64,000 bases of DNA from an uncultured archaeon (GTDB lineage: Archaea; Thermoproteota; Bathyarchaeia; TCS64), in NCBI GenBank assembly GCA_938048735.1, contig CALIUM010000008.1, forward strand, positions 1 to 64,000. Reading direction: 5' to 3'. Shown here one piece after another: positions 12,044-61,068 of the stretch. A program made the translations under genes and the position numbers. How positions within the stretch are numbered: position 1 is the stretch's first letter; every line of letters starts with the position of its first letter. A model generated the notes under the pieces. It saw only the letters and a list, made by a program, of their open reading frames with translations. It did no database searches and was not told the origin of the DNA.

Positions 12044-12390
12044 TCAATTAATAACTATTTCAAAGCTTATATTTATTACCTATTCGAGGTATCGATAAGA
12101 AAATAAAAGATCTCTTTATTCCTTCAAGATTTGTGATGTTATAGATCTCCTTCTTACATAATCTCCAAAATCACATTTATATCTCTTCTTTTATATACAG
12201 GGACTCTATCTAACAGGGCATATTCATCGCTTTAAACCTTCTAACCTTTTGTTCCGTCCATCCCCTTCTCATTAGGCTCCATCATCACATATACTTCAAA
12301 GAGAACCTATGAGGCCGGATGTGTGAGCTACCCCCTTTGATAGCCCTCAACCCATGAGTTTGGAACCAATAGACATGAGGGGATTTGAAG
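12044..12390. other. intergenic region, about 350 bp
   Basis: Divergent spacer between the TPR-methyltransferase gene and the small helical-protein gene. AT-rich, with TATA-like stretches, and the GAGGGG Shine-Dalgarno sequence of the downstream gene at about 12377-12382. No RNA gene, repeat or reading frame with a recognisable product was found. Confidence 0.5.
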
Positions 12391-12840
12391 ATGTTCAACT
12401 TGATCAAGTCCAAAAAGGTCCTCGGAAAACTTTATAGATGGTTGAAGATAGAATTATTCGGATTGTTCAGGGGTCTGGAGCTCACGCCTGAGGAAGAGGA
12501 GGAGATCATTAAAAGGGTTGCTGAGAAGATATCGGAATATGGGATGAATGCTGCCGCTATCTTGATGCTGCAGACCTTCAAGCCCATGGCGTATATAGGT
12601 GGGCAGATGGGCCGCTTCTTCATCAGCCCCCTCCTCTACGGCCTGGGGGACAAGATCTCCCTGGGATCCGAGAAGTTATTCATGGTCTTCGAGAATCGAG
12701 ATAACATCGAAAAACTGATCAGGATGCTGGAGCAAAAGGCAGAAGAGGAGACGATGAAGAGAGAAGGGGCGGAGAAGAGGGATATGAATGAGGCGGTTGG
12801 AGGACCATTAAAGAGGTTAAGGCGTCTCTTCGGCATCTAA
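12391..12840 (+). CDS. conserved small helical protein, copy 1 of 3
   Basis: About 149 residues from the ATG at 12391, which has GAGGGG about 9 nt upstream; an in-frame TTG at 12385 is too close to it. After a basic N-terminus comes TPEEEEEIIKRVAEKISEYG, AAAILMLQTFKPMAYIGGQM, GRFFISPLLYGLGDKI and a Glu/Lys-rich tail ending RRLFGI. It shares the blocks EEEEEII, FKP/IKP-(M/L)-(A/T)YIGGQMGRFF, SP and VFEx(R)(D/E)N(I/V)EKL with the protein at 60703, and more loosely with 59784. The middle helix is hydrophobic enough for peripheral membrane contact. The 3' end overlaps the convergent MNT gene by 24 nt. No known family recognised; a link to the nearby membrane cassettes is inferred from location only. 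Confidence 0.75.
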   Translation: MFNLIKSKKVLGKLYRWLKIELFGLFRGLELTPEEEEEIIKRVAEKISEYGMNAAAILMLQTFKPMAYIGGQMGRFFISPLLYGLGDKISLGSEKLFMVFENRDNIEKLIRMLEQKAEEETMKREGAEKRDMNEAVGGPLKRLRRLFGI

Positions 12841-14873: not shown

Positions 14874-15509
14874 CTAATAGGGTATGCCTAATAATGCCCT
14901 TATGAAGTTCACCACGTTCTCTGTCCATGTTCCGAGTGCGGTTATGAACCAGCCGAACTCCATCCCCCAGGAGACACCCAGTCCAGCCATCATTATTATT
15001 CGCCCGAACCTAGCTAGGCCTCCGTAAACTCCTACATGCTCCCTGGTGTATATGAAGTACATTATGGCGCAGAGGGTTGCTATGCCAGCGAATAAGGCGG
15101 AGGCCACCGCGAATGGGACCTTGGCCGCGATCATCTCCTCCCCTATGCTCCTGACCTGCCCAACTATCTGGGCCTCAAGTGCCCCTCCCACAAGGATTCC
15201 TATTCCTATCGCCGTTAGGAGCGCCGTGGGATACCTCGCTATCCATCCCCATGGCGTCAACCTCCCGAAGGTGAGGATAGCTAGGAATAGAGGTATGACC
15301 AAGAGAATCCTCCCAGCCATTATGGAGTCCAGCGCCGTGGTCTTCACTGCTAGGAGGCCGTACATCAGCGAGTGGGCGCAGCCGGCCCCTATGACTATAT
15401 GCTCAATCAGCCTGTAGTATGGGTTTTCCCTCCAGACGAGGGTCATTATCCCGACGGCCATTAGGCTGGACCAGCCCAGCCAGAAGAGTTCCCACGACAA
15501 GCCTCTCAC
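14874..15509 (-). CDS. membrane cassette 1, subunit D (polytopic membrane protein)
   Basis: 211 residues, about six hydrophobic helices. It carries the subunit-D signature near the N-terminus: WRENPYYRLIEHIVIGAGCA, equivalent to YRENIFYRIGEALLVG in copy 2 and YKDNYLYRLAQHIFLG in copy 3. A central RYPTALLTAIGIGILVGGALEAQIV segment (charged RYP/RWP plus Gly-rich helix ending in QI(V/I)RQ) is also shared. It overlaps subunit C by 4 nt (ATGA type), so it is translationally coupled. No known family recognised. The fixed order A-B-C-D in all three copies says it is a structural partner of the complex rather than a passenger. Confidence 0.8.
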   Translation of the reverse strand: MRGLSWELFWLGWSSLMAVGIMTLVWRENPYYRLIEHIVIGAGCAHSLMYGLLAVKTTALDSIMAGRILLVIPLFLAILTFGRLTPWGWIARYPTALLTAIGIGILVGGALEAQIVGQVRSIGEEMIAAKVPFAVASALFAGIATLCAIMYFIYTREHVGVYGGLARFGRIIMMAGLGVSWGMEFGWFITALGTWTENVVNFIRALLGIPY

Positions 15510-16354
15510 TTCCTCCCTGACAGCCTCTTCCCCCAGTAGGCGATGTTCCCTATCAGCACCAGCACTAGGGTGGGGATGGATGCGAGGTTTTTCATGTCTG
15601 TGATCTTCGCCGCGAGGGCTGGCTCGCCGATGAAGCTCTCCATCGCCGCGCCCCCCGTCGGGCCTGATAGATATCCCTTGGTCATCCCCGCCACCCAGTA
15701 GGATACCGTGCTCATCTCGTTCCCTGAGGCGGTCATCCAGAGCTGAGGAATCTCAGGGTGGGTGGCATACCACTGCCTCACATACTTGTCCATGGCTGTG
15801 CCCGTGGAAAAATTAACGAAGATCGCGGAGAAGTCCTTCCAGCTATCAACCTTCTGCATGAGTGGGATCTGGTCTAGTGGGGTTCCCAGGTAATCTGTTG
15901 AGACCCTGGCGCGAATGCTGTCTCGGAATCCGGCCACCATGACCTCCTCCCCTGGGACATAGCCTAGGAAGACATAGTTCTCGCCGTACTTCACGCCGAA
16001 CCTCTTCGGGTTAGCGTACTCTATACCCCAAAGGGAGGTGGGAGCGGCGTCGGCGTAGACTGCGACTATGACCACGTTTATCTTTTTAGACCAGAGGTAC
16101 TTGAGGGTGGCCGTGAAGCTTCCCTTGGTCTCATCCCAACCGCTTCCCGACATCTCCTGGAAGAATAGTACGTTCGACCCTGGAGGTATCTCCTTTATCG
16201 CTTTGATATAATCCGCGGCTGGAGCTCCCACGGGCACCGGAAGCCCGAGGGGGTAGAGTATGGGGATTATGAGGCACGCGAAGACCGCGATCGCCACACC
16301 CCACTGCGGGACGTCCAGGAGCCTATCCCAAACTGTCTTCTCCTTCCCAGCCAT
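15506..16354 (-). CDS. membrane cassette 1, subunit C (membrane-anchored alpha/beta domain)
   Basis: 282 residues: one transmembrane helix near residues 17-38, a soluble domain of about 200 residues, and a second helix near the C-terminus (LVLVLIGNIAYWGKR). The soluble part has alternating strands and helices (GSNVLFFQEMSGSGW, INVVIVAVYADAAP) and blocks shared with copies 2 and 3: KYGENYVFLGYVPGEE (KYG.(D/N)(Y/W)VN.G(Y/W)(V/I)(P/A)G), STDYLGTPLDQIPLM (xDAYGNxIxxLPL(M/I)), and STGT near residue 186. With a helix at each end, the domain lies on one side of the membrane; I infer the outside but cannot prove it. Function unknown; no catalytic motif recognised. Confidence 0.8.
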   Translation of the reverse strand: MAGKEKTVWDRLLDVPQWGVAIAVFACLIIPILYPLGLPVPVGAPAADYIKAIKEIPPGSNVLFFQEMSGSGWDETKGSFTATLKYLWSKKINVVIVAVYADAAPTSLWGIEYANPKRFGVKYGENYVFLGYVPGEEVMVAGFRDSIRARVSTDYLGTPLDQIPLMQKVDSWKDFSAIFVNFSTGTAMDKYVRQWYATHPEIPQLWMTASGNEMSTVSYWVAGMTKGYLSGPTGGAAMESFIGEPALAAKITDMKNLASIPTLVLVLIGNIAYWGKRLSGRK

Positions 16355-16366
16355 TCCGCTACCACC

Positions 16367-17002
16367 TCATATTACCGCTGTTCTCTCCTTCTGTATGATG
16401 GTTCGCAGGCATACGACGACGCTTATCAGGGCCGCTGTGAGGACTGCAACTCGGGCTGCTGGGGTCATGACGTACCTCAAGAACCAGTCTCCGATGCCGG
16501 TCATGGGTGGGAATATGGCGCATATGATGGGCATCTCCTTCAGGAAGTAGGACATAGCCCCTATGAGCAGGGCTAGGGCCTCTAGGTTGGAGACCCTCAT
16601 CGCGCGGTATACGCCCATCGTCGAGAAGATTAGGTTCAGGCCCCAGAGGGTGGTAGTGGCCGGGATAATCGTCCTCATATACATGGTGACATACTGGGTA
16701 CTACTTAATCCTATTCCATATCCTATACCGAGGAAGACGAAGAAGGCTACGATGGCAACTATGCTGTAGTATCTCGCCCAGGGCTCACGAGAGGGGGGTT
16801 TCACGATTCTTAGTGAGTGGTATCTCAGCATAAGGGCCGAGCCCAGGAGGGTAACAAAGTTATATATTATCACCCCCCAGGTCAGCATCTCCTTCCTGAA
16901 ATCGGCTAGGGGTCCCAATGCGATGAAGTATTCAACTATCAAGATGAATGCTATGATGGAGATTATGTACATGGGGATCTGCGTCCTAATGACTACCGCC
17001 AT
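16367..17002 (-). CDS. membrane cassette 1, subunit B (polytopic membrane protein)
   Basis: 211 residues, about six transmembrane helices. Shared with copies 2 and 3: an LxRYH segment after the second helix (LMLRYHSLRI; FRYHLNNI; LARYHVALI), followed by a basic loop and a VFLGIGYGIG-type helix, and a C-terminal G(D)W...(V/T)P/MT...R motif before the last helix, here GIGDWFLRYVMTPAARV. It starts 11 nt after subunit A and ends 12 nt before subunit C. Copy 1 is the most divergent of the three B proteins by eye. No known family recognised; a membrane scaffold or channel part is only inference. Confidence 0.78.
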   Translation of the reverse strand: MAVVIRTQIPMYIISIIAFILIVEYFIALGPLADFRKEMLTWGVIIYNFVTLLGSALMLRYHSLRIVKPPSREPWARYYSIVAIVAFFVFLGIGYGIGLSSTQYVTMYMRTIIPATTTLWGLNLIFSTMGVYRAMRVSNLEALALLIGAMSYFLKEMPIICAIFPPMTGIGDWFLRYVMTPAARVAVLTAALISVVVCLRTIIQKERTAVI

Positions 17003-17013
17003 CTCCTACCCCC

Positions 17014-17790
17014 CTACATCTTTAAGAGGCTATTTAGCGCCGGGTTTCCCATAAGGCCCAAGATGATGCCGATGACTCCTAGGGCTATCAGGAACATCTT
17101 CACGACATCCTCCCCAGCCAGGCTGGCGGTCATCCCGGGATCTCCAGACACCAACGTTCCGGCTGCTAGAACCTCCTCACAGATCAGGACATAGTCACAG
17201 GTTATGGCCTGCCCATACATTGCCGTCCACCTCGTGGTCCCCCCGATGTTTATCGCACCTATCTGCCTAGCCACAGCGTGGCTCTGGATCTCCGTGTAGA
17301 AGACCCCAATCTGGACGTTGAGTGCTACGTTGTTCCTGAGAACCGTCCCACACCTGGCGATCTTATAGGCAGACGGACCATAATATAGGATGTTCTCCTC
17401 CTTATACAGCTCAGGCTTCCCCTCCTCTCTATAAGCCTCCCGGGCTATCCCCTGGACCAGGGGGATAATCTCAGCAACCCCTGGGAGGCTCGTGTAGACC
17501 GGGACCTCATGCTTGGCTGCGAGCTTGAGCGTGTACTTATAGATGTTCAGGGCGGAGACGACGGCTGGCCCCCACTCTCCCGAGATCTGGCCGAAATCGC
17601 CTGGTGCATAGTGCATGGGTCTGCCCATCTCCGCGCACCTCCCTATCCCCTCCTCGATGGCATCTATCGCAGGTATCTTCCGAATCTTGGGTAGAGGCCT
17701 CCCCTTCGAGACAAGCCATAGGTAGTACCCCATCATCGCAGAGAGAAGTGCTACAACTATCAGTTCGGAGATAACACCTGCTTTAAGCAT
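17014..17790 (-). CDS. membrane cassette 1, subunit A (DUF6754-like)
   Basis: 258 residues; a transmembrane helix at about 10-28 and another at the C-terminus flank a conserved domain. Conserved with copies 2 and 3: KIRKIPAIDAIEEGIGRCAE followed by MGRPMHY, YGPSAYKIA, INIGGTTRWTAMYG, and CDYVLICEEVLAAG followed by SGDPG and GEDVVKMF (consensus CDY..I.EE..AAG...SG.P.......G.D..K). I recognise the DUF6754-type pattern; the function of that family is not known to me. The conserved Cys-Asp-Tyr/Glu-Glu cluster could be a functional site. First gene of the operon, with an AT-rich promoter region just upstream of 17790. Confidence 0.82.
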   Translation of the reverse strand: MLKAGVISELIVVALLSAMMGYYLWLVSKGRPLPKIRKIPAIDAIEEGIGRCAEMGRPMHYAPGDFGQISGEWGPAVVSALNIYKYTLKLAAKHEVPVYTSLPGVAEIIPLVQGIAREAYREEGKPELYKEENILYYGPSAYKIARCGTVLRNNVALNVQIGVFYTEIQSHAVARQIGAINIGGTTRWTAMYGQAITCDYVLICEEVLAAGTLVSGDPGMTASLAGEDVVKMFLIALGVIGIILGLMGNPALNSLLKM

Positions 17791-36120: not shown

Positions 36121-36777
36121 TTACTCCTTTTTTATAAGGTTGTCCACTATTATCAGTATTATTGCGACTATCGAGGCGTAGAGGCCGGGTGGGCGGACTA
36201 CAGTAGGTATCAGTGATATCGCGAAGCCTATGTTGGACATGAGGAATAGGCCGAGGGTGGTTCCGAAGCAGATCATCATGGAGTAGATCCCTAACTTTGC
36301 GACAGGGGCTAGGGCGCCCTTATGCTCGAAGGTGTAGAGGAAGTATGCTAGGGATGTTATGGCCGTCACTAAAAGGATGAGGTTATTGACACCGGTGAAA
36401 ATGTCCTTGGTAAATAGGCTCCCAATGTCGAGCTGCCTTACAATCTGGGCCATTACGGCCCCCTTCATCGCGACCCCTAGGCCCGCTCCTGAGAGGAGGG
36501 CTATGGGCCACCGGCTAACCCACCAGAGGCTCTTGGAGAACCTGGTATACATCATGAGGCCGAGGGCCACCGCTATCAGTGTCGGGCTGAGCCACTGCTG
36601 CTTTACCACGATAGGGATGTATATCCTGTTGAAGAGCACGTCTAGGCCCACCTTGACCGATATGGCTAGGGCAAGGCCGACGAGCAGAGCCTCGCCTATC
36701 CTGTAGAATATGTTCTCCCTGTAGAGGAAGGACCAGGCCATGAGGATAACTATGCTCATGACAAGGGCATCTATCAA
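36121..36777 (-). CDS. membrane cassette 2, subunit D
   Basis: 218 residues, about six transmembrane helices. Subunit-D signature YRENIFYRIGEALLVGLALA near the N-terminus and WPIALLSGAGLGVAMKGAVM with AQIVRQLD after the third helix, as in copies 1 and 3. FEHKGALAPVAKLGIYSMMI corresponds to FTREHVGVYGGLARFGRIIMM-like segments of copy 1. Overlaps subunit C by 4 nt. No known family; function unknown. Confidence 0.8.
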   Translation of the reverse strand: MIDALVMSIVILMAWSFLYRENIFYRIGEALLVGLALAISVKVGLDVLFNRIYIPIVVKQQWLSPTLIAVALGLMMYTRFSKSLWWVSRWPIALLSGAGLGVAMKGAVMAQIVRQLDIGSLFTKDIFTGVNNLILLVTAITSLAYFLYTFEHKGALAPVAKLGIYSMMICFGTTLGLFLMSNIGFAISLIPTVVRPPGLYASIVAIILIIVDNLIKKE

Positions 36778-37610
36778 CCCTTACCACCCCTTCTCCTCGT
36801 GAAGTACCAGATGTTCCCGATGATTATCAGTCCGACCCCGTATATGTGGGATAGGGTCTGGGCGTCGAGGGTTCTTAGGCCCTCTCCGGGCATCCCTGTG
36901 AGCTTCTCATATCCCGCCGCATCGCTCTCAGCCCCTATATACCCCGTTATCAGCCTCTTCTCGTAATATGGAAGCGTCCAGGGGACCGTCGCGATGAGCG
37001 TGTTGATTATCAAAGGCTTGCCGTAACCTCCAAGCTGCCTGGGGTATGGGTCCGGGCTCGTCGAGGTGGAGAACCCGATCAGGGCTATATCGGAGATGGA
37101 GCGGACATCTCTCAACATGGGCAGTTTATCGATGGTGTTTCCATACGCGTCTGTTTTGACGATGCCCTGGAAGTCCTTAGCCATGGCCATGAGGGTGGTC
37201 TCGTATCCCGGGATCCAGCCTAGGTTCACGTAGTCCTCGCCATACTTCAACCCCCTAGTGTCTACATACTCCCTCAGGATCCTCTCGGCGTTGAGGGAGC
37301 CATCCACGCTGTAGGTGGTCACTATGATCACCTTGATCCCCTTCCTCCTGATAAGGTCGAATAGGTGGCGGTATATGGCCACCTCGGCTGGGCCTACCTG
37401 CCCCCAGGTGCCGACCGAGAAGTCGGTTATCCACATCGCGATGTCTCCGCTTTTCAGATCCTCTATCTGCCTGTATACCTCAACGGTGTTTGAGCTGATG
37501 CTTATCGGGAGGCCTAGGGGGGAGATAGCCGGGATGGCGATCAATATGATGAAGATCATGAAGACAGCCCTATCTACCAGTGGAATACCGGTTCTCTGCA
37601 CCTCATCCAC
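36774..37610 (-). CDS. membrane cassette 2, subunit C
   Basis: 278 residues from a GTG at 37610. N-terminal helix (VFMIFIILIAIPAISPLGLP), soluble alpha/beta domain and C-terminal helix (IYGVGLIIIGNIWYFTRRR). Blocks shared with the other copies: LKYGEDYVNLGWIPGYET, VKTDAYGNTIDKLPMLRDVR, IGFSTSTSPDPYPRQLGG and TLDAQTLSHIYGVG (C-terminal; (M/L)DAQ(S/T)xSH in copies 2 and 3). KVIIVTTYSVDG is a hydrophobic strand. Starts 8 nt inside the end of subunit B. The DAQ-SH motif in front of the last helix is a possible functional site. Confidence 0.8.
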   Translation of the reverse strand: MDEVQRTGIPLVDRAVFMIFIILIAIPAISPLGLPISISSNTVEVYRQIEDLKSGDIAMWITDFSVGTWGQVGPAEVAIYRHLFDLIRRKGIKVIIVTTYSVDGSLNAERILREYVDTRGLKYGEDYVNLGWIPGYETTLMAMAKDFQGIVKTDAYGNTIDKLPMLRDVRSISDIALIGFSTSTSPDPYPRQLGGYGKPLIINTLIATVPWTLPYYEKRLITGYIGAESDAAGYEKLTGMPGEGLRTLDAQTLSHIYGVGLIIIGNIWYFTRRRGGKG

Positions 37611-38214
37611 CTCCCAGATATGAACGTTCTCTGCCTATTATTGCCCTCATGAAGAGGACGATCATGCTGATCCCCATCCCTATCAGGATCCCCCTATATG
37701 CCCCAGTGTTAGGAACGTTCTTTATCCAATCGCCTACTGTTATCAGCTGAGGGGAGAGCGCTCGGATGCTCGGGGTGTTGTAGAGCAATATAACTACGGT
37801 GACGATGAGCAGTAATATGGCCGTCGGAGACTTCAGCCTCGCCCCCCTGAGGAAGACGGTGTAGGTGTAGAAGCCGACGAAGGATGATATCGACATGCTC
37901 AAAGGCGTGTAGAGCTTGGAAAAGATCCAGTCATATATGCTCTTATTCAGGTAGGCTATTGCAAGATAAAATAAGAAGCTTCCGATTACCAGTACGCTGT
38001 AATATACGTCTCTCCCCTTCCTTATGTTGTTTAAGTGGTATCTGAAGAGGTTCACAACCCCTATAAGGTATGAGAATGTAACGAGTATAACCACCCAGCT
38101 CAAGAGCTCAGAGGCCTGCACGGATAGGTTTCCAGTGTAGTAATCAATCAGCGGAAGCAAGGAACCTATGGCGAACAGAATTATGGGGATCTCTATCCTC
38201 CTGAGAAAACTCAT
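37603..38214 (-). CDS. membrane cassette 2, subunit B
   Basis: 203 residues, six transmembrane helices. Shared B features: FRYHLNNIRKGRD after helix 3 and VGDWIKNVPNTGAYRGILIG before the last helix (xxDWIxxVPNxxxYRxIxIGxG in copies 2 and 3). Ends with a basic RAIIGRERSYLGGG tail, matching LILRKEVTWMG in copy 3. Lies 6 nt after subunit A and overlaps C by 8 nt. No family known to me. Confidence 0.8.
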   Translation of the reverse strand: MSFLRRIEIPIILFAIGSLLPLIDYYTGNLSVQASELLSWVVILVTFSYLIGVVNLFRYHLNNIRKGRDVYYSVLVIGSFLFYLAIAYLNKSIYDWIFSKLYTPLSMSISSFVGFYTYTVFLRGARLKSPTAILLLIVTVVILLYNTPSIRALSPQLITVGDWIKNVPNTGAYRGILIGMGISMIVLFMRAIIGRERSYLGGG

Positions 38215-38220
38215 CTCACC

Positions 38221-39000
38221 TCACCACGCTGAGAGATAACCTATCAGGTTGAATCCGGCTGTGGAGGCAGCGGCCGCCAGTATGAAGAGAGCTATAAGGA
38301 TTATCTTGTAGAGGTCCTGACCCCTGAAGTAGCCAATGGAGCCCGGGCTCCCCTCGAGGGCGGCCCCTGCTACGTAGAGTTCCTCTCCTATCAACAGGTA
38401 GTCGCAGACGCATATCATGATCGGGATGTAATAGAGCCTAGGGGTTCCTCCCAGCTGCATGCATCCAGCTATGGCTCCCGCCCCGAGTTGGTTTATAGTC
38501 TCCCATAGGGTCGCCCCGAATATCATGTTCACGGCGGGCCTCTCCCTCAATATGTACCCCATGACCGAGGTCATGAAGGCCGTCTGATACTCACCAACAT
38601 AATACACCATGTCTGGGGAGTACATGTCTGGATTCCCACTCTTCATATAACCAGCCTTGATGATGTCCTGAGCCACGGGCACGAGGTACGCTCTAGGTGT
38701 AGTGTATCTTAAATAGACCCCTGCCTTGCCGCAGGTCTCAGCCACCTTGCCGAGGATGGCCAACCCAGAGAGCGTCATGGGGGCATACTGGTCATCGGTT
38801 CCTCCGATCCCAGTGGTATAATGGACCGGCCTGTTCATCTCCGCAGCCCTCCCAACAGCCTCCTCAATGGCCTCCAGCGCTGGAAACTTCCTGATGCGAT
38901 ATCTAGGAACTCTTTTCTCAGCGCTCTTCATGTAGAAGTAAGCCAGTCCGATGCATATCACCATCAGTAAAAGCTCAAACTTTTTCCCCGAAAGAATCAT
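38221..39000 (-). CDS. membrane cassette 2, subunit A (DUF6754-like)
   Basis: 259 residues. An N-terminal helix (LLLMVICIGLAYFYMKSAEK), then RIRKFPALEAIEEAVGRAAE and MNRPVHYTTGIGG, TLSGLAILGKVAETCGKAG, FGATLWETINQLGAG, MQLGGTPRLYYIP, and CDYLLIGEELYVAGAALEGS followed by RGQDLYKIILIALF. The block order is identical to copies 1 and 3; copies 2 and 3 look closer to each other than to copy 1. First gene of the operon; an AT-rich region lies upstream. Confidence 0.82.
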   Translation of the reverse strand: MILSGKKFELLLMVICIGLAYFYMKSAEKRVPRYRIRKFPALEAIEEAVGRAAEMNRPVHYTTGIGGTDDQYAPMTLSGLAILGKVAETCGKAGVYLRYTTPRAYLVPVAQDIIKAGYMKSGNPDMYSPDMVYYVGEYQTAFMTSVMGYILRERPAVNMIFGATLWETINQLGAGAIAGCMQLGGTPRLYYIPIMICVCDYLLIGEELYVAGAALEGSPGSIGYFRGQDLYKIILIALFILAAAASTAGFNLIGYLSAW

Positions 39001-53393: not shown

Positions 53394-54536
53394 TTATTCT
53401 GTAACTATTTCTACGTCAGCTCTAGGAATTATAACTCTTTTTCCATCTTCTAATTCCACTTCCACTACTCTTACAAGTGACTCTGTTTCTATCTTCATCA
53501 ATTCCACTGGGAGCCGAACGACTCTTCCTAATTTTCCGAAATATGGGTACCTTATTATCCTGATAATGCTTCCAACTTTCATTTTTCCTTCTTCAACATC
53601 TTCATCCTCGATTTTCATTTTTCCACTTAAATTTTTAGGTATTATTATTTCTGGTCTTAGTACCCCTGCTCTGACCTGTGTTGCTCCATTTATAGCCGCG
53701 ATTTTCCCTTCATTATCCTTTAATATTTCGAATGCCTTATCTGATATTGGAAGTTTTCCAAATCCCTCTGTTAATATCAATGTAAATCCCAATTCTTCCC
53801 TTCCAGTTATAGCTACTCCCATTCTAGTACCTATTAGCTTTTCAAGGTCTTCTATATCAGCTCCACCCGTTATTATTCCCTTAACACCTATTTTCCTCGC
53901 CTTCTCTAAAGCGTCTAGGTTTACAAATGATCCTCCTACTATTATTTTCCCATGATCACTTTCGAAGATTTTATCTGGGGTAAGTATATCTTCTGGGTTT
54001 GAGACGGCTACTCTGAGTTCTCCGAACCTCTCTCCTGAAAATCCTATGATACCCTGTACATAGGCGGCCCATGTCCCAACGACGACGGCCTCTTGGGGTA
54101 TCACCTCATCTATTTTTCCCCTAACATAAGCAGCAACCTCAACCGGTCTTTGAGGTTCTCTTATTGTGATGTTTCCTGTTATTTCATTTATATCCTCCAC
54201 ATATCCATCTATAGGTGACAATACTGTCTTGTTTATTAAACCAAATGCTGCTCTTAACCTTGCTATGATCTCTCCTTTCTTCACAGGATCACCCTTCTTC
54301 TTAAGGAGATATCGAGGCACCTCTTCCGTATCTACATCTAGTAGTTCAGCCACCTTCAGTATCTGGGGCATCCCCTCCAGATAGCATCTCGCCACAATAG
54401 TATCAAACTCAACAGGGTCTCCTACTTTAACCAATATCTGGCCTTTAACCGGAAGACTTCTGAGCTTCCTCACATAGGTAAGAGGTGTGACCCTTAATCC
54501 AGGTGTATATGCGAAGCTCTCTTCTGAGACGCTCAT
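53394..54536 (-). CDS. barrel-sandwich/KOW-domain protein, partner of the GlmL-type ATPase
   Basis: 380 residues from the ATG at 54536, which overlaps the ATPase stop (ATGA) with GGAGAAAGGG upstream; an ATG at 54551 is less likely. N-terminal: short repeats (GQILVKVGDPVEFDTIVARC) and a barrel-sandwich-hybrid unit like biotinyl/lipoyl or RnfC-type domains (KKGDPVKKGEIIARL, SPIDGYVEDINEITGNITIR). Middle: alpha/beta (GIIGFSGERFGELRVAVSNP, GKIIVGGSFVNLDALEKARK). C-terminal: a KOW-type motif (GSIIRIIRYPYFGKLGRVVR). No known name. Its fixed, coupled position after the ATPase points to a shared complex. AT-richer than the far end of the same operon. Confidence 0.75.
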   Translation of the reverse strand: MSVSEESFAYTPGLRVTPLTYVRKLRSLPVKGQILVKVGDPVEFDTIVARCYLEGMPQILKVAELLDVDTEEVPRYLLKKKGDPVKKGEIIARLRAAFGLINKTVLSPIDGYVEDINEITGNITIREPQRPVEVAAYVRGKIDEVIPQEAVVVGTWAAYVQGIIGFSGERFGELRVAVSNPEDILTPDKIFESDHGKIIVGGSFVNLDALEKARKIGVKGIITGGADIEDLEKLIGTRMGVAITGREELGFTLILTEGFGKLPISDKAFEILKDNEGKIAAINGATQVRAGVLRPEIIIPKNLSGKMKIEDEDVEEGKMKVGSIIRIIRYPYFGKLGRVVRLPVELMKIETESLVRVVEVELEDGKRVIIPRADVEIVTE

Positions 54537-56362
54537 AAACCCTTTCTCCATTCTTCAATTTTACTTTCTGGATACAGCTCTATGGAGTCATACCAACTGA
54601 TTAAAAGCTTCTTTCTTTCTTTTTCATCTTCTGGGAGATATATGGGTCTTCCTCTTCCGTCAAATATGACCCCGACCACTCCTCCACTGATAGTCCTTTC
54701 AACCGATTTTCCAAAGCCATTTCCAAAGTCAAAGTTGCTCGAGGGATTAACTCTAATTTTAACATTTATTTCTTTGGGGATAGGTTCTCTTATTATCTGT
54801 CCGAATGATAGGTCGAATGTCTTTTTTTTATCATCCCATTCTAGTTCGATGGTTGCTACCTTTGCACCTATCTTGTCTGTTCCCACGCCTGCCACAATGG
54901 TTCCCATGTAGACTAGGCACTCCTTCTCGAATATATCTAGGGCGATCTCTTTTTGGATTGTTGAGAGGACCCCGAGGTGGGGCATCATGAATACGCTGTC
55001 CTGGAGGAGAGAGGTGAATCCCCTCGGCTGGAATGCGTCTGTGAGTATCATCATAGATTGATTTCTTCTCGGTGCTCTCGATAGGAGCCCTCCGGTTCCT
55101 ATTATATGGCTCACATCAAACATCTCTATATATGTGTCCTCGGGTTTAACCTCTTCGAATATGTCCGATATAGTCCTCTCCTTCTTAACCCCCTTCAACT
55201 CCCTTGCCAAGTATTTGTGATGGTTGAACCCCAGCCTTATAGCCTCCCTAGCTAGGGAATGTTCGATCACCAGATCTTCCACCGTTATTGGGATTGTTGT
55301 GGGCCGTATCATCTTGTTGTAGACCACCTCCATTAGATCTTTAACATCCATCTCGAATGGGATCCATCTCAGGACGTTCTCCGCACCCGCCTCTTTAAAG
55401 ACATTTCCGACGCTGTAGCTCATCCCTAGATTGGCGCTGACCGTGCGTAGGAACCTGCCCTCGAAGTTCGAGTATATGTTGGTTGTCGCACCTCCCAAAC
55501 CGACTCCTATCACGTTCACCCCCTTCATCTCGGAGAAGGTCCTGATCATCATCCCCTCACCAGCGGGTGTAGGCATGATTGAGGTGGATACGAGCTTCTT
55601 CAGCTTGTCATATCCAGGTGCATGGGCCATAACATGCTCCATGAAGAGATACAGTATAGCATTTCTAGCCTGCTCCACCTCCTCGACCTCTATCTTTGGG
55701 CGAAGGTTGTCGGTTATTATGACTTCAAAGTTGTCCCTGAGCATCTTCTTAACCTCTTCTCTCACGGCAACATTGCCAGCATAGACGACGGGTAGGAGAT
55801 ATTCAGCCCCTAGCCTTGGCCTTGGCCTCGCCTTCGAGAGCAGCTCGGTCATCTCCAGAACATGAGTCTTATCTCCCCAATCCGTCCCCCCGGCCAGGAG
55901 GACGATATCCGGCCTCAGAAACCTAAGGGTCTCTATCTTATAGTAGTCATCCCTTCCATCGTCGACAGATAACACATCCATGACTATCGCCCCGGCTCCG
56001 AGGGCGGCCCTCTGGGCGCTCTCCGCGGTTATGGATTTGACAACCCCTTGGACAAGCATCTGGAGCCCTCCCCCAGCGCTACTCGTGGAGACATAGATGT
56101 CCACCCCGACTTTATCCCCCTTGTATGGCATTAGGATAGAGAGCTCCTCCTTGGCGTTATCCATGATCATGTGGCCTGTTAGCTCCTCGACCTCCCTAAT
56201 GGCGTTTCTGACGCCCATGGTGACATCCTCCACGGGCTTCTCGACCGTTGTGGGGGCCTCTCCACTGGCTATGAACCTCCACCGCCCATCTACCTTACCG
56301 AAGAACCTGGCCTTCGTAGTGGTGCTTCCCACATCAGTCGCAAGTATGTAGCTCGGCTCCAT
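54533..56362 (-). CDS. GlmL/MutL-type ASKHA ATPase (orphan)
   Basis: About 609 residues from the ATG at 56362 (AAGGGG just before); the frame is open upstream to 56449 but with unconserved codons. YILATDVGSTTTKARFFGKV is the phosphate-1 motif of the actin/Hsp70/sugar kinase fold; GVGLGGATTNIYSNFEGRFL and IIGTGGLLSRAP are phosphate-2/adenosine-like loops. Matches the 'glutamate mutase L' (GlmL/MutL) family, an accessory/reactivation-like ATPase for B12-dependent carbon-skeleton mutases in bacteria. No glmE, glmS or other mutase gene is in the window. Instead the gene is coupled to the KOW protein and stands head to head with membrane cassette 3, 260 bp away, so I infer an energising role there. 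Confidence 0.82.
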   Translation of the reverse strand: MEPSYILATDVGSTTTKARFFGKVDGRWRFIASGEAPTTVEKPVEDVTMGVRNAIREVEELTGHMIMDNAKEELSILMPYKGDKVGVDIYVSTSSAGGGLQMLVQGVVKSITAESAQRAALGAGAIVMDVLSVDDGRDDYYKIETLRFLRPDIVLLAGGTDWGDKTHVLEMTELLSKARPRPRLGAEYLLPVVYAGNVAVREEVKKMLRDNFEVIITDNLRPKIEVEEVEQARNAILYLFMEHVMAHAPGYDKLKKLVSTSIMPTPAGEGMMIRTFSEMKGVNVIGVGLGGATTNIYSNFEGRFLRTVSANLGMSYSVGNVFKEAGAENVLRWIPFEMDVKDLMEVVYNKMIRPTTIPITVEDLVIEHSLAREAIRLGFNHHKYLARELKGVKKERTISDIFEEVKPEDTYIEMFDVSHIIGTGGLLSRAPRRNQSMMILTDAFQPRGFTSLLQDSVFMMPHLGVLSTIQKEIALDIFEKECLVYMGTIVAGVGTDKIGAKVATIELEWDDKKKTFDLSFGQIIREPIPKEINVKIRVNPSSNFDFGNGFGKSVERTISGGVVGVIFDGRGRPIYLPEDEKERKKLLISWYDSIELYPESKIEEWRKGL

Positions 56363-56583
56363 CCCCTTCAGCTCTCTAACCTGAGGGATTAATATAAAAA
56401 CAATACGTCTTGTGGGTTCTGAACCCCCTCGAATAGCAGGCTTCGGCAACTTAACCTTGATGTAAGGATAAGATTATGCCTTGAAACTCGAGGACACTCG
56501 GCATTTTATCAACTCCACTGGAATTAGTCGATCTCTCAAACATACAAGGCAAGATCCATGAGATCCGATCTCAGACCACGACA

Positions 56584-56622: not shown

Positions 56623-57432
56623 ATGTTATTGAACTATCTCCCCGTTGAGCAAGTGATAAACCCTGCAGCTGGAGCCGTTTCCCTGGCTATTCTAATCTTC
56701 CTGTCGCTCTCAGGATACTATTATATGAAGCTTGCAGAGAGGGGTAGAACCTTCCCGGTTAGGAAGATCAGGGCCTTCGAGGCTATAGAAGAGGCCGTTG
56801 CAAGATCGGTTGAGATGGGGAGGCCAGTGCACTACACCATCGGCTATGGAAGCCTCAGGACGGCTCATGCCCCCCAGTACACCGCCGGTCTTGGGGTTTT
56901 AACCCATGTTGCCAAGCTTGCAGGGAAGTATGGAGCAAGGCTGATAGTGACACATGGGGTGCCCGAGGCCATAGCCTCTATTGACGAGATAGTCAGAGAT
57001 GGGTACTTCTCCGAGGGTAGACCTGAGCTCTATAATCCTGTGGACAACGCGAGATATCTCACCGACATCCAGTTCGCCTACGCCTCATCTGCCCAAGCTG
57101 TCATTATAAGGGAGAATGCTGGTGCGAACATAGTTATCGGCCCCTTCTGGGCCGAGTCTCTGATACTGGCCGAGGCTGGGACTATGGTCGGGGCCTTCCA
57201 GATAGGTGGAACCGCCAGGGATGTGCAGATCCCATTCTTCGTACTTGTCTGTGACTATGCCTTCATAGGGGAGGAGATCTTCGCCGCGGGAGCGATGGCC
57301 TCCGGTGACATCCCCACTCTAGCAAGCATTAGAGGGCAGGATGTTGGCAAGCTGCTCTCCATCGTGCTCATAGTGCTCGGGTTGATACTACTTCCTTTCG
57401 GTGTGAAGCTTGCCACATACCTCATGTGGTGA
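56623..57432 (+). CDS. membrane cassette 3, subunit A (DUF6754-like)
   Basis: 269 residues. N-terminal helix (AVSLAILIFLSLSGYYYMKL), then FPVRKIRAFEAIEEAVARSV and EMGRPVHYTIGYGS, QYTAGLGVLTHVAKLAGKYG, SEGRPELYNP, EAGTMVGAFQIGGTARDVQI, CDYAFIGEEIFAAGAMASGD followed by IRGQDVGKLLSIV, and a C-terminal helix. This is the clearest copy. Leaderless TATA promoter. The GRPVHYT and CDY.FIGEE blocks are conserved in all three copies, so are likely functional. Confidence 0.83.
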   Translation: MLLNYLPVEQVINPAAGAVSLAILIFLSLSGYYYMKLAERGRTFPVRKIRAFEAIEEAVARSVEMGRPVHYTIGYGSLRTAHAPQYTAGLGVLTHVAKLAGKYGARLIVTHGVPEAIASIDEIVRDGYFSEGRPELYNPVDNARYLTDIQFAYASSAQAVIIRENAGANIVIGPFWAESLILAEAGTMVGAFQIGGTARDVQIPFFVLVCDYAFIGEEIFAAGAMASGDIPTLASIRGQDVGKLLSIVLIVLGLILLPFGVKLATYLMW

Positions 57433-58106
57433 TGGAAATGAGCGTGATTTGGAGGCGTACAGTTCCGCAGCTCCTCGTGGCCATCATACTTGTTGTGATG
57501 ACGGCCCTCTATTTCCTGTACATAGACAAGACGACCAAGGCGACCCTAAACTATTGGGATCAGCTTCTGATCAACTATTCGATAGTGATAGCGGCTCTGG
57601 CCGCAATCGTTGGAGGGGTTGACCTCGCAAGGTATCACGTGGCCCTGATTATGAAGAGGGAGAGGGAGCAGATCCCCTTCAGTTTAATAACCCTATTCCT
57701 TGAGGTGGTCTGCGTTGTCTTCGCTTTCTATGCACTCGCCACAGGGGTCCCCATTCTCACCCAACCCCAGTTCTCCTGGATATATCTAAACCTACAGGTA
57801 CCCACGAGCTCGGCCATGTACTCTATCTTGGTATTTTACGTTGCTTCGGCTGCCTATAGAACCTTTAGGGCTAGAAATCCTCCAGCCCTTCTCCTACTCA
57901 TAGTAGGTGTCATAGTGATGCTTGGGAACACTAGCTTAGGATTTGTAATATGGCCTGGGTTCACACCCCTGAAGGACTGGATAATGACGGTTCCAAATGC
58001 AGCCGGCTATAGGCCAATAGTCATAGGAGTAGGCTTGGGAACCATCATCCTAGGCCTGAGGTTAATCCTAAGGAAAGAGGTAACATGGATGGGGAGGAGG
58101 GACTAA
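57432..58106 (+). CDS. membrane cassette 3, subunit B
   Basis: 224 residues from the ATG at 57432, overlapping the A stop (TGATG); the frame also opens with GTG at 57426. Six helices; VDLARYHVALIMKREREQIP after helix 2 and LKDWIMTVPNAAGYRPIVIG before the last helix are the B signatures. Ends with a basic LILRKEVTWMGRRD tail. Co-translated with A and C. Confidence 0.8.
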   Translation: MEMSVIWRRTVPQLLVAIILVVMTALYFLYIDKTTKATLNYWDQLLINYSIVIAALAAIVGGVDLARYHVALIMKREREQIPFSLITLFLEVVCVVFAFYALATGVPILTQPQFSWIYLNLQVPTSSAMYSILVFYVASAAYRTFRARNPPALLLLIVGVIVMLGNTSLGFVIWPGFTPLKDWIMTVPNAAGYRPIVIGVGLGTIILGLRLILRKEVTWMGRRD

Positions 58107-58108
58107 AG

Positions 58109-58951
58109 ATGGGTACCTCACTGAAGAGGCTTGACACCATTATAGGTACTAGGCAACTGCTATATACACTACTCATAATCTTCACTTTAATACCGATGTT
58201 CTTTCCTCTTAGGCTTCCAATCAGCATATCAGCTAGGACTAAAAAAGTATACAATTACATAGATAATTTAAAGCCAGGTTCCTATATATTCATAGATTTT
58301 GACTATGACCCTGCCGGTAGAGGAGAGATCGAACCTCAGGCCGTAGCGATGATGAAGCACCTATTCGATAAGAAGTGTAAGCTTGTAATGGCATCCTTGG
58401 GTACAACAGGACCAGTCATGTTCGAGATAATGAGAAAGACAAATCCGGACATATTCGCCGGGAAGGAGTATGGAAAGGACTGGGTTAACATCGGATATGT
58501 GGCGGGGGGTGAGTCTGCGGCAGCGGGTCTGGCTAGGAGCATCTCAGGCACAGTAGCCATGGACGCCTACGGTAACCCCATCGGGAATCTACCTCTCATC
58601 AAAGAAGCAGACAAGGCAGAGCAGTTCGCCCTAGCAATAGTCTTCACCACAGGGACTGATACTCTTTACTACTTCGTAAGACAGTGGTTCACCCCCTATA
58701 AGACCCCTCTAATACTGGGGATCTTGGGAGTAATGGGCCCTGCTGCGGAGCCCTTCGTGGCGGCTGGCCAGGCCGTGGAGTTGATGGTCGGCCAGGTTGC
58801 GGGGGCTGAGTACGAGGTTCTAGTAGGAAGACCGGGAATAGGCCTAGGAGCTATGGACGCACAGAGCACAAGCCACGCCATAATATTGATCTTCATTATA
58901 CTTGGAAACATTATGTTTTGGAGCGTTAGGTTGAGGGGTGAGAAGAGATGA
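58109..58951 (+). CDS. membrane cassette 3, subunit C
   Basis: 280 residues from the ATG at 58109 (GGGAGGAGGG upstream; an ATG at 58085 is within the B gene). N-terminal helix (LLYTLLIIFTLIPMFFPLRL), alpha/beta domain with SYIFIDFDYDPAG, KEYGKDWVNIGYVAGGESAA, AMDAYGNPIGNLPLIKEAD, VFTTGTDTLYYFVRQWF and AMDAQSTSHAIILIFIILGN before the C-terminal helix. Same block order as copies 1 and 2. The 5' third is AT-richer than the 3' part. Confidence 0.8.
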   Translation: MGTSLKRLDTIIGTRQLLYTLLIIFTLIPMFFPLRLPISISARTKKVYNYIDNLKPGSYIFIDFDYDPAGRGEIEPQAVAMMKHLFDKKCKLVMASLGTTGPVMFEIMRKTNPDIFAGKEYGKDWVNIGYVAGGESAAAGLARSISGTVAMDAYGNPIGNLPLIKEADKAEQFALAIVFTTGTDTLYYFVRQWFTPYKTPLILGILGVMGPAAEPFVAAGQAVELMVGQVAGAEYEVLVGRPGIGLGAMDAQSTSHAIILIFIILGNIMFWSVRLRGEKR

Positions 58952-59661
58952 TCGAGGCAATTCAAATATGGCTATCTGCAGCCCTAGTGATATGGATATG
59001 GAGCTTCGTATACAAGGACAACTACCTATACAGGCTAGCTCAGCACATCTTCTTGGGAGCTGCTGCTGGATACTCCATAGGGATCTCCCTAGACAGCCTG
59101 AACAAGACCGCCCTAGTTCCTTTAGCGAAGTCTCCCACAACAAATATGCACCTGATAATCCCTATCATAATCGGGCTGCTCTTCTTCTTCAAGTACTCTA
59201 GAAGATACTATTGGGTGGCCCGCTATGGCGTAGGAATAGCACTGGCCGTAGGAACAGCCCTCGCCTTCAGGACAGCTCCCATGGCGAACATAATAAGGCA
59301 GGTAAACGCGGTTTTGCTCCCCCTCTGGACCCCTGACCCGGTCAAAACCCTAAACAACTGGATTCATGTAGTCATAACCCTAAGCGCCCTGGTATACTTC
59401 ATATTCACTGTAACGCCGAGGGTGGTTGAGGGTAGGCCCACCATAACATACAGGCTCTATGACGCCGTTTTGAGGATAGGCATCTACGGCATGATGGTGG
59501 CCTTCGGCGCCACACTGGCCAACACGATAATGACGAGGCTGGCCTTCTTCATATCCATGAACCTCCAATACCTCCAACCTTATCCACTCGAGTCATTATC
59601 TGCCATAATCCTAGTTGCCATAGCTATACTCTTCGCCATGCGCCGCGCAAGAGCAGGGTGA
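58948..59661 (+). CDS. membrane cassette 3, subunit D
   Basis: 237 residues, about six helices; YKDNYLYRLAQHIFLGAAAG near the N-terminus, RYGVGIALAVGTALAFRTAP followed by MANIIRQVN, and LRIGIYGMMVAFGATLANTI, as in the other D proteins. Overlaps C by 4 nt. Ends with a basic RRARAG tail. A TATA-like and T-rich stretch follows, then the small helical-protein gene 120 bp away. Confidence 0.8.
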   Translation: MIEAIQIWLSAALVIWIWSFVYKDNYLYRLAQHIFLGAAAGYSIGISLDSLNKTALVPLAKSPTTNMHLIIPIIIGLLFFFKYSRRYYWVARYGVGIALAVGTALAFRTAPMANIIRQVNAVLLPLWTPDPVKTLNNWIHVVITLSALVYFIFTVTPRVVEGRPTITYRLYDAVLRIGIYGMMVAFGATLANTIMTRLAFFISMNLQYLQPYPLESLSAIILVAIAILFAMRRARAG

Positions 59662-59783: not shown

Positions 59784-60095
59784 ATGGAGGAGAATAATGC
59801 AACCGACGTATGGCTCTCTTCAATAGCAGAAAAATTGGTCAACCTTAATCTCGACTCGGTGGCCGTCTTCTTCCTCGAGACCTTTGGGCCCATGAGCAAT
59901 GTCTGGAGCCAGCTTGGTAGGCTCCACCTACAGCCTTTATTGATCCTTCTAGGCCCCTCCGGAGAGAGGCTGATGAGCTTCCTAGAGAAGCCGGAGAACT
60001 TGGAGAGGTTTTTGAAGAAGATAGAGGAGGTGAGGGAGAGAAAAACTAGGAGGCCGTGGATGGGCGGTCTATTTAGAAGGTTATTTGGATCTTAA
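59784..60095 (+). CDS. conserved small helical protein, copy 2 of 3 (divergent)
   Basis: 103 residues: WLSSIAEKLVNLNLDSVAVF, FLETFGPMSNVWSQLGRLHL, QPLLILLGPSGERLMSFLEK and ENLERFLKKIEEVRE, with a basic GGLFRRLFGS end. The pattern (helix, F-E-x-x-x-P-M, Q-x-G-R, P, GxxxE, E-x-x-E-N-x-E-x-(F/L)) matches the copies at 12391 and 60703, but EEEEEII is lacking. It follows cassette 3 in the same direction, so it may be part of the same system, perhaps a soluble or membrane-associated partner. Confidence 0.7.
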   Translation: MEENNATDVWLSSIAEKLVNLNLDSVAVFFLETFGPMSNVWSQLGRLHLQPLLILLGPSGERLMSFLEKPENLERFLKKIEEVRERKTRRPWMGGLFRRLFGS

Positions 60096-60244: not shown

Positions 60245-60655
60245 ATGACCAGAGGCATGGGGAGAGTTAGAAGTCCAAACATCACCGATTACATGGCAGG
60301 GGCACTTCTAGCCAACGGGCCTATATGGATGTGGATGATGGCCCTGGGTTATTTCTCTGACTGGTTTTCAGCCCTCTCACCGGCTCTGATCGGGGGGCTA
60401 TCCCTCATCATCTATCTGGCTGGAGGAAGCTTGGCATCCTACCTTGTCTGTAATAGGGCCGAGAGGGGTCTCCTCCTAGCAGCCTTGAAGCTGGTAGCAG
60501 CAGAATGGGCCTTCTACCTCATGATGATAATATCTACCACTCCAGAGCCCTCCCCAGGCCAAGCCTCACCACCCCTCATCTGCTTCATCCTAGGAGGTCT
60601 TATAGGGGCCTACCTCTCCACGAGGAGGAGGCTCAGGAGGCCGAGCGGAGATTAA
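60245..60655 (+). CDS. hypothetical membrane protein, four helices
   Basis: 136 residues; hydrophobic segments MAGALLANGPIWMWMMALGY, LSPALIGGLSLIIYLAGGSL, LAALKLVAAEWAFYLMMIIS and LICFILGGLIGAYLSTRRRL. Basic tail. ATG near a TATA-like sequence (60170-60180). It sits between two small helical-protein genes downstream of cassette 3 and may belong to the same cluster. No family recognised. Confidence 0.65.
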   Translation: MTRGMGRVRSPNITDYMAGALLANGPIWMWMMALGYFSDWFSALSPALIGGLSLIIYLAGGSLASYLVCNRAERGLLLAALKLVAAEWAFYLMMIISTTPEPSPGQASPPLICFILGGLIGAYLSTRRRLRRPSGD

Positions 60656-60702: not shown

Positions 60703-61068
60703 TTGTACTGGGATGTTGAGGTCTCTCCCGAGGAGGAGGAGGAGATCATAAGGAAGGCCGCCGACTTGATCCACAGGTATGGGATGGATGTGGCCGCCAT
60801 CCTCTTCATAGAGAGCATAAAACCCCTCACCTACATAGGGGGCCAGATGGGAAGATTCTTCCTATCCCCCTTCCTCCCAGCTTTCGGAGAGAGGATAGGA
60901 AGGGGGGGAGAAAAGTTCTTCACAGTCTTCGAGAAAAGGGAGAATGTGGAGAAGCTCCTAAGGTTGCTGGAGGAGAAGGCAAAAGAGGAGGAGAAGCCGA
61001 AGGAGGAAAGGAGACTCGAGATCCAGGGAGAAAAAAAGAGAGGTTGGAGGAGGTTCCTCCCCTTCTGA
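60703..61068 (+). CDS. conserved small helical protein, copy 3 of 3
   Basis: 121 residues from a TTG at 60703 (no ATG fits). VEVSPEEEEEIIRKAADLIH, RYGMDVAAILFIESIKPLTY, IGGQMGRFFLSPFLPAFGER and VFEKRENVEKLLRLLEEKAK; basic end GWRRFLPF. It is strikingly close to copy 1 (EEEEEII, YGM(N/D)(A/V)AAIL, KP(M/L)(A/T)YIGGQMGRFF, SP) though the genes are 48 kb apart. So the family is under clear selection. Function unknown. Confidence 0.75.
   Translation: MYWDVEVSPEEEEEIIRKAADLIHRYGMDVAAILFIESIKPLTYIGGQMGRFFLSPFLPAFGERIGRGGEKFFTVFEKRENVEKLLRLLEEKAKEEEKPKEERRLEIQGEKKRGWRRFLPF

Follow-up and report, generated by a model that had tools for sequence, protein, structure and literature searches.

Three four-gene membrane cassettes built on a DUF6754 protein, and an associated MutL-family pair, in an uncultured Bathyarchaeia archaeon

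Gene organization of the window

The window, by which we mean the whole 64,000-nucleotide stretch of DNA analysed here, contains three cassettes of four genes, A-B-C-D, already pointed out in an earlier note made from the letters alone; all 12 of the 12 open reading frames were found, in the order and on the strand given there. Cassette 1 lies on the minus strand (A, 17014..17790; B, 16367..17002; C, 15506..16354; D, 14874..15509), as does cassette 2 (A, 38221..39000; B, 37603..38214; C, 36774..37610; D, 36121..36777), and cassette 3 is on the plus strand (A, 56623..57432; B, 57426..58106; C, 58085..58951; D, 58948..59661). The proteins are 22-35% identical in pairwise comparisons among the three copies. 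A belongs to DUF6754 (PF20539), a Pfam domain of unknown function, the curated cut-off of 27 bits being exceeded by all three window copies (E 3e-39 in cassette 1, 197.7 bits in cassette 2, E 1e-69 in cassette 3); in cassettes 1 and 2, B, C and D were recognised by their family profiles, supported for B and D by the ABCD synteny.

Two details of the original description needed correction. Junctions or overlaps of 4-12 nt had been given for the cassettes, and this fails at the B/C boundary of cassette 3, where a C start at 58085 gives an overlap of 22 nt; since the C family profile begins at 58109, the likely true start, the junction becomes a 2-nt gap. Reading the frames directly, we also saw that several of the motifs quoted as shared occur in only two of the three copies: the GRP of the A motif is NRP in copy 2, and both DWIxxVPN (B) and DAQxxSH (C) are missing from copy 1. 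The residues conserved across the whole families are R47, E64, G173 and D211 in A and P41, D160 and N275 in C.

Our analysis adds to the earlier note the pairing of MutL with BSH, two small families (E and M2), further copies in the genome, and the opposite membrane orientations predicted for A and C. Divergent from cassette 3 runs, on the minus strand, a MutL-family protein of the ASKHA fold (54533..56449; PF13941, E 3e-115), together with its fixed partner BSH (53394..54551, minus strand), a barrel-sandwich-like protein whose C-terminal tail we read as KOW-like and which matched no family above cut-off. On the plus strand just after D of cassette 3 lies the first copy of small family E (59784..60095), followed by M2 (60245..60655), a small polytopic membrane protein that is a recurrent neighbour, and by a second E copy (60703..61068); a third (12385..12840, plus strand) is near cassette 1. 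Family E proteins have about 100-150 residues, no Pfam match and, in two of the three window copies, a GxxMGRxFLSP-type stretch; E and the cassettes occur in almost the same set of genomes, and E often lies upstream of MutL.

Folds and topology of the cassette proteins

B, C and D had no accepted Pfam or NCBIfam match as window copies, nor did any accepted Pfam family emerge from single scans of diverse members, about 47 per family and 46 in the case of C; A, C and D showed no sequence relation to solved structures. The family scans of A-D returned no heme, Fe-S or nucleotide-binding family and no ABC transporter family, one-off matches being confined to one or two members at E > 5e-4, and we recognised no transporter fold or motif in them. 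A match to a known transporter or respiratory complex, which the earlier note had named as speaking against its reading, thus did not appear for any member in the family and structure-sequence searches. The best match of B was to a bile acid cotransporter (E 0.004 over 79 residues); 49 members of the family did not support it, and B as a bile-acid-type carrier was rejected. An anti-phage defence system was likewise discarded, PADLOC having given only a match of E 0.035 to a small accessory protein, which we did not accept.

AlphaFold2 models of A and C from cassette 3 were confident (mean pLDDT 92.5 and 93.7) and display the same plan, namely a helix at either end and, between these, helices alternating with six strands, so that both are predicted to be Rossmann-like alpha/beta domains held between two membrane helices. 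Basic residues fall on the domain side in 103 of 112 copies of A and on the tail side in 112 of 115 copies of C, a charge pattern which by the positive-inside rule places the domain of A in the cytoplasm and that of C outside. The same rule predicts six helices for B, whose N-terminus would be inside the cell, and six or seven for D, whose N-terminus would be outside.

Comparison of the A and C profiles gave E 1e-4 across 123 columns, a stronger match than the best of 38 unrelated control profiles (E 2e-3). With a larger alignment the value was E 3e-4 and the full-length path was colinear from the first helix to the last, at a modest hhalign probability of 42-58%; strands and helices follow the same order in the two models. 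A and C are therefore likely, though not proven, to be distant paralogues in opposite orientation. No such homology is claimed for B and D, whose profile match of E 0.0047 weakened to 0.045 with more sequences.

The Rossmann-like folds of both models raise the question of a membrane-bound enzyme complex, in which A and C would be catalytic or cofactor-binding domains and B and D an anchor or a quinone or lipid pathway, for example a dehydrogenase or a transferase acting on membrane or extracellular substrates. The nearest PDB matches were indeed among enzymes, and A and C carry invariant acidic and polar residues. However, Foldseek against the PDB yielded only generic, partial Rossmann-like matches (E >= 8e-3, query TM-score <= 0.37) and none with E <= 1e-3 for either model, the cofactor-binding families named above are lacking, and 15 diverged copies would be unusual for a single enzyme; we consider this alternative unlikely.

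Distribution, synteny and copy number

Profiles seeded with the three window copies only found about 100 further copies of each of A, B, C and D. The surroundings of about 105 A loci from 29 genomes were then compared by profile search: B, C and D stand beside practically every A, practically every complete cassette has the order A-B-C-D, and 86 loci are simple ABCD clusters, the others being mostly cut by contig ends, arranged in tandem arrays or affected by split or broken genes. Median junctions are +5 nt (A/B), +1 nt (B/C) and -1 nt (C/D), and the median identity between cassette subtypes is 26-33%. Lack of synteny elsewhere had been listed as the other observation that would count against a common machine; in both the profile and the neighbourhood searches the order proved essentially invariant.

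The source genome (G000; 1.6 Mb in 30 contigs) has eight A loci. Five cassettes are intact, the three of the window plus one on contig C20 and one on C9, and the remaining copies have decayed, although some of these gene breaks could stem from assembly errors: on C10 (L045) A and B are frameshifted and in pieces, on C5 (L043) A lacks its start and B and D are broken, and on C15 (L046) only a broken A remnant is left. Each of the three has an intact counterpart in the congener G001, which carries 15 cassettes in a genome of 1.8 Mb. One locus of that congener (L048:8698-14917) is a tandem ABCD-ABCD of two strongly diverged cassettes, 33-40% identical.

DUF6754 was present in 28 of 41 relatives, all 28 belonging to the same taxonomic order, and in none of 11 genomes from other orders of the class; the named near relatives are mostly Bathyarchaeota metagenome-assembled genomes, and no sequence relative of A was found in viral contigs or plasmids. 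The A tree contains many deep subtypes, with cassettes of distant lineages of the phylum interleaved among those of the own family, which indicates that the subtypes are old and that cassettes have been lost many times. At least seven lineage changes are forced by well-supported branches, and judging from this tree the cassettes have probably been exchanged between lineages many times.

Additional genes accompany some subtypes. In 10 genera, the D gene of one subtype is followed, in the same direction, by a gene for a protein of 290-306 aa whose family is unknown and which contains the stretch LLVYLGVRPCS (L083:5337-6212, L084:2996-3916), possibly a subtype-specific fifth cassette gene. Another recurrent pair, seen at L080:1326-2526 and at equivalent places in 5 genera, adjoins one cassette subtype on the other strand and encodes a secreted protein resembling SIMPL/DUF541 and a protein of 112 aa.

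The MutL-BSH pair

Neighbourhood maps showed MutL and BSH as a fixed pair beside many cassettes, often with E and M2. The window MutL matches PF13941 over its full length (385.9 bits, positions 1-450) and retains the GGATT and DVGSTTTK-type phosphate motifs, by which an ATPase is predicted. In a phylum-wide sample of 300 genomes DUF6754 was above cut-off in seven (G000, G026, G097, G168, G192, G250 and G280), and the same seven held C, full-length MutL (other listed matches being short pieces of 50-70 residues) and, short marginal matches apart, BSH. Random coincidence of two families in such a pattern would have a probability of 2e-14, a value that is overstated because the seven genomes come from few lineages (the own order, f38, f54 and f58). 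Among the 41 relatives, 25 had both ABCD and MutL, 3 ABCD only, 3 MutL only and 10 neither (p 5e-5), and the exceptions are mostly incomplete genomes. Against the reading proposed below, MutL-BSH lies outside the cassettes themselves, and cassettes without a detected MutL were those of G007 (94% complete), G019 and G029 (64-68%).

In outgroup genomes, four to seven cassettes go with only one MutL-BSH, located away from them, so that there the pair must be a shared component. The outgroup pair, as at L189 (G097:C1:818000-834000), has genes for an M55-like D-aminopeptidase and a LysA-like protein after it and, before it, one for a conserved protein of 130-180 aa with a membrane anchor. In another family of the class a 78% complete genome (L192, G037:C50) has MutL-BSH-E without detected DUF6754, adjoining transketolase-like genes and a class III aminotransferase-like gene.

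The textbook partner of MutL is glutamate mutase. The window protein shares its Pfam family with GlmL, and it might accordingly be a reactivase of a B12-dependent mutase as in glutamate fermentation, its sharing of genomes with ABCD being a phylogenetic coincidence; the few lineages involved do amount to fewer than seven independent events. Against this, none of 21 system-bearing genomes encoded the glutamate mutase E subunit (PF06368), the distribution of A, C, MutL and BSH over several families of the phylum is identical, and MutL-BSH adjoins cassettes in many loci. The MutL proteins also score 210-225 bits, far below the cut-offs of 475 (GlmL) and 600 (ornithine-mutase Or-4), the GlmL equivalog score being 209.5 bits. 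We regard the reactivase explanation as highly improbable. From the co-occurrence in genomes, the absence of glutamate mutase and the low GlmL and ornithine-mutase scores, we conclude, at the level of sequence comparison, that this MutL subfamily works with ABCD.

Metabolic neighbourhood

The non-redundant genes near cassettes include M20, M81, M19, M55, M24, M42 and TldD peptidases, amidohydrolases and DUF917 (S-Me-THD) proteins; by our own reading further neighbours appear to be N-acyl-D-amino-acid-deacylase-, creatininase-, M28- and hydantoin-racemase-like. Recurrent amidohydrolase and peptidase families supply 37 of the 247 genes near cassettes, compared with 9 of 298 in the background (p 4e-7), for families picked after seeing the data and a background drawn from one genome (G005). 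Many of these hydrolase genes are on the strand opposite to the cassette. A class III aminotransferase, considered as a marker neighbour, was not enriched (4/247 near, 3/298 background).

A sensory or receptor complex would also place one domain on each membrane side, with C as outside sensor, A as inside output and B and D transmitting between them, and its many copies, in a neighbourhood linked to substrates, would correspond to many ligands. Two polytopic subunits nevertheless exceed the needs of a receptor, and no kinase, methyl-accepting or cyclase signalling domain stood out among the cassette neighbours, which makes this improbable in our judgement. An equally low standing is given to a machine exporting envelope material, lipid or protein, with MutL-BSH as its cytoplasmic motor: the tie to an ASKHA ATPase family with an adaptor-like partner, and the membrane partner M2, would suit it, but the cassettes lack a P-loop or secretion ATPase, their hydrolase neighbours are catabolic, and whole cassettes have been lost relative to the sister genome.

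Proposed function

There is good support for the order ABCD, for the topology of its proteins and for their tie to MutL-BSH, and the multi-subunit membrane machine with specialised paralogues proposed in the earlier note remains the best reading, given the invariant synteny and the lack of a match to a known complex. Two polytopic subunits, a domain on each face of the membrane, diverged copies and amide-hydrolase neighbours together fit importers best, and a family of importers with different substrates fits better than an enzyme, a sensor or an export machine. The decay and loss of single cassettes in the source genome, and the presence of up to 15 copies, are what would be expected of peripheral, substrate-specific systems.

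Each ABCD cassette would encode one hetero-oligomeric complex that crosses the membrane and has a domain for handling ligand on either face. As oppositely oriented paralogues, A and C may flank a pathway formed by B and D; C would capture a solute outside, and A would receive it or act as a gate inside. Each paralogous cassette would have its own substrate; peptides, acylated amino acids and hydantoin-like or other amide compounds are the probable ones, and the neighbouring hydrolases would degrade them. One or a few MutL-BSH pairs, an ASKHA-fold ATPase with its adaptor, could serve all cassettes of a cell from the cytoplasm as a shared activator, chaperone or energiser, and E and M2 may be accessory proteins in part of the lineages.

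Substrate-specialised importers sharing a MutL-BSH accessory are our best explanation overall, held with a confidence slightly short of even. Transport by ABCD in itself seems about evenly balanced, and energising by MutL is a guess that we find rather doubtful. Somewhat further out, and on balance unlikely, would be a primary transporter of a new class, in the form of a pseudo-inverted complex of four subunits (AB against CD) driven without a P-loop ATPase by the shared ASKHA-fold MutL and its barrel-sandwich adaptor.

Comparison with known systems

We rate the ABCD system as new, consisting as it does of one DUF, three unnamed families, a separate MutL subfamily and a BSH without a family. 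Our literature search returned no paper naming DUF6754, PF20539 or PF13941 and nothing relevant on GlmL/MutL neighbourhoods. The system matters because no description of anything alike was found. As many as 15 copies occur in one genome of 1.8 Mb, so that what these uncultured archaea feed on and how they manage their energy cannot be understood if it is left aside; through the tie to MutL-BSH, moreover, MutL-family proteins gain a role beyond B12 mutases.

A is a member of DUF6754, an entry under which B, C, D and the system as a whole are undescribed. GlmL/MutL and the ornithine-mutase protein (PF13941, NF040745, NF040744, TIGR01319) share the ASKHA family with the window MutL over 450 positions, and bacterial relatives are 25-30% identical; unlike GlmL, the window MutL has a fixed BSH partner and a tie to ABCD, in genomes where those tested had no glutamate mutase.

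If ABCD imports, it would resemble ABC peptide importers (SBP_bac_5) in its outside binding domain, its membrane subunits and its amide-hydrolase neighbourhood, but it has neither an ATP-binding cassette nor a substrate-binding protein, and separate SBP_bac_5 genes persist, being retained in most genomes with cassettes. Replacement of ABC peptide importers by the cassettes was rejected, as the two show no inverse relation in number (Spearman -0.17, p 0.37).

In group II ECF transporters a shared energiser serves many substrate-specific parts. No sequence relation to ABCD was found, and ABCD differs in having four-gene membrane units without EcfT, EcfA or a P-loop ATPase; as a working analogy, in both of them many membrane units, each specialised for a substrate, would depend on one or a few ATPase-like units used in common.
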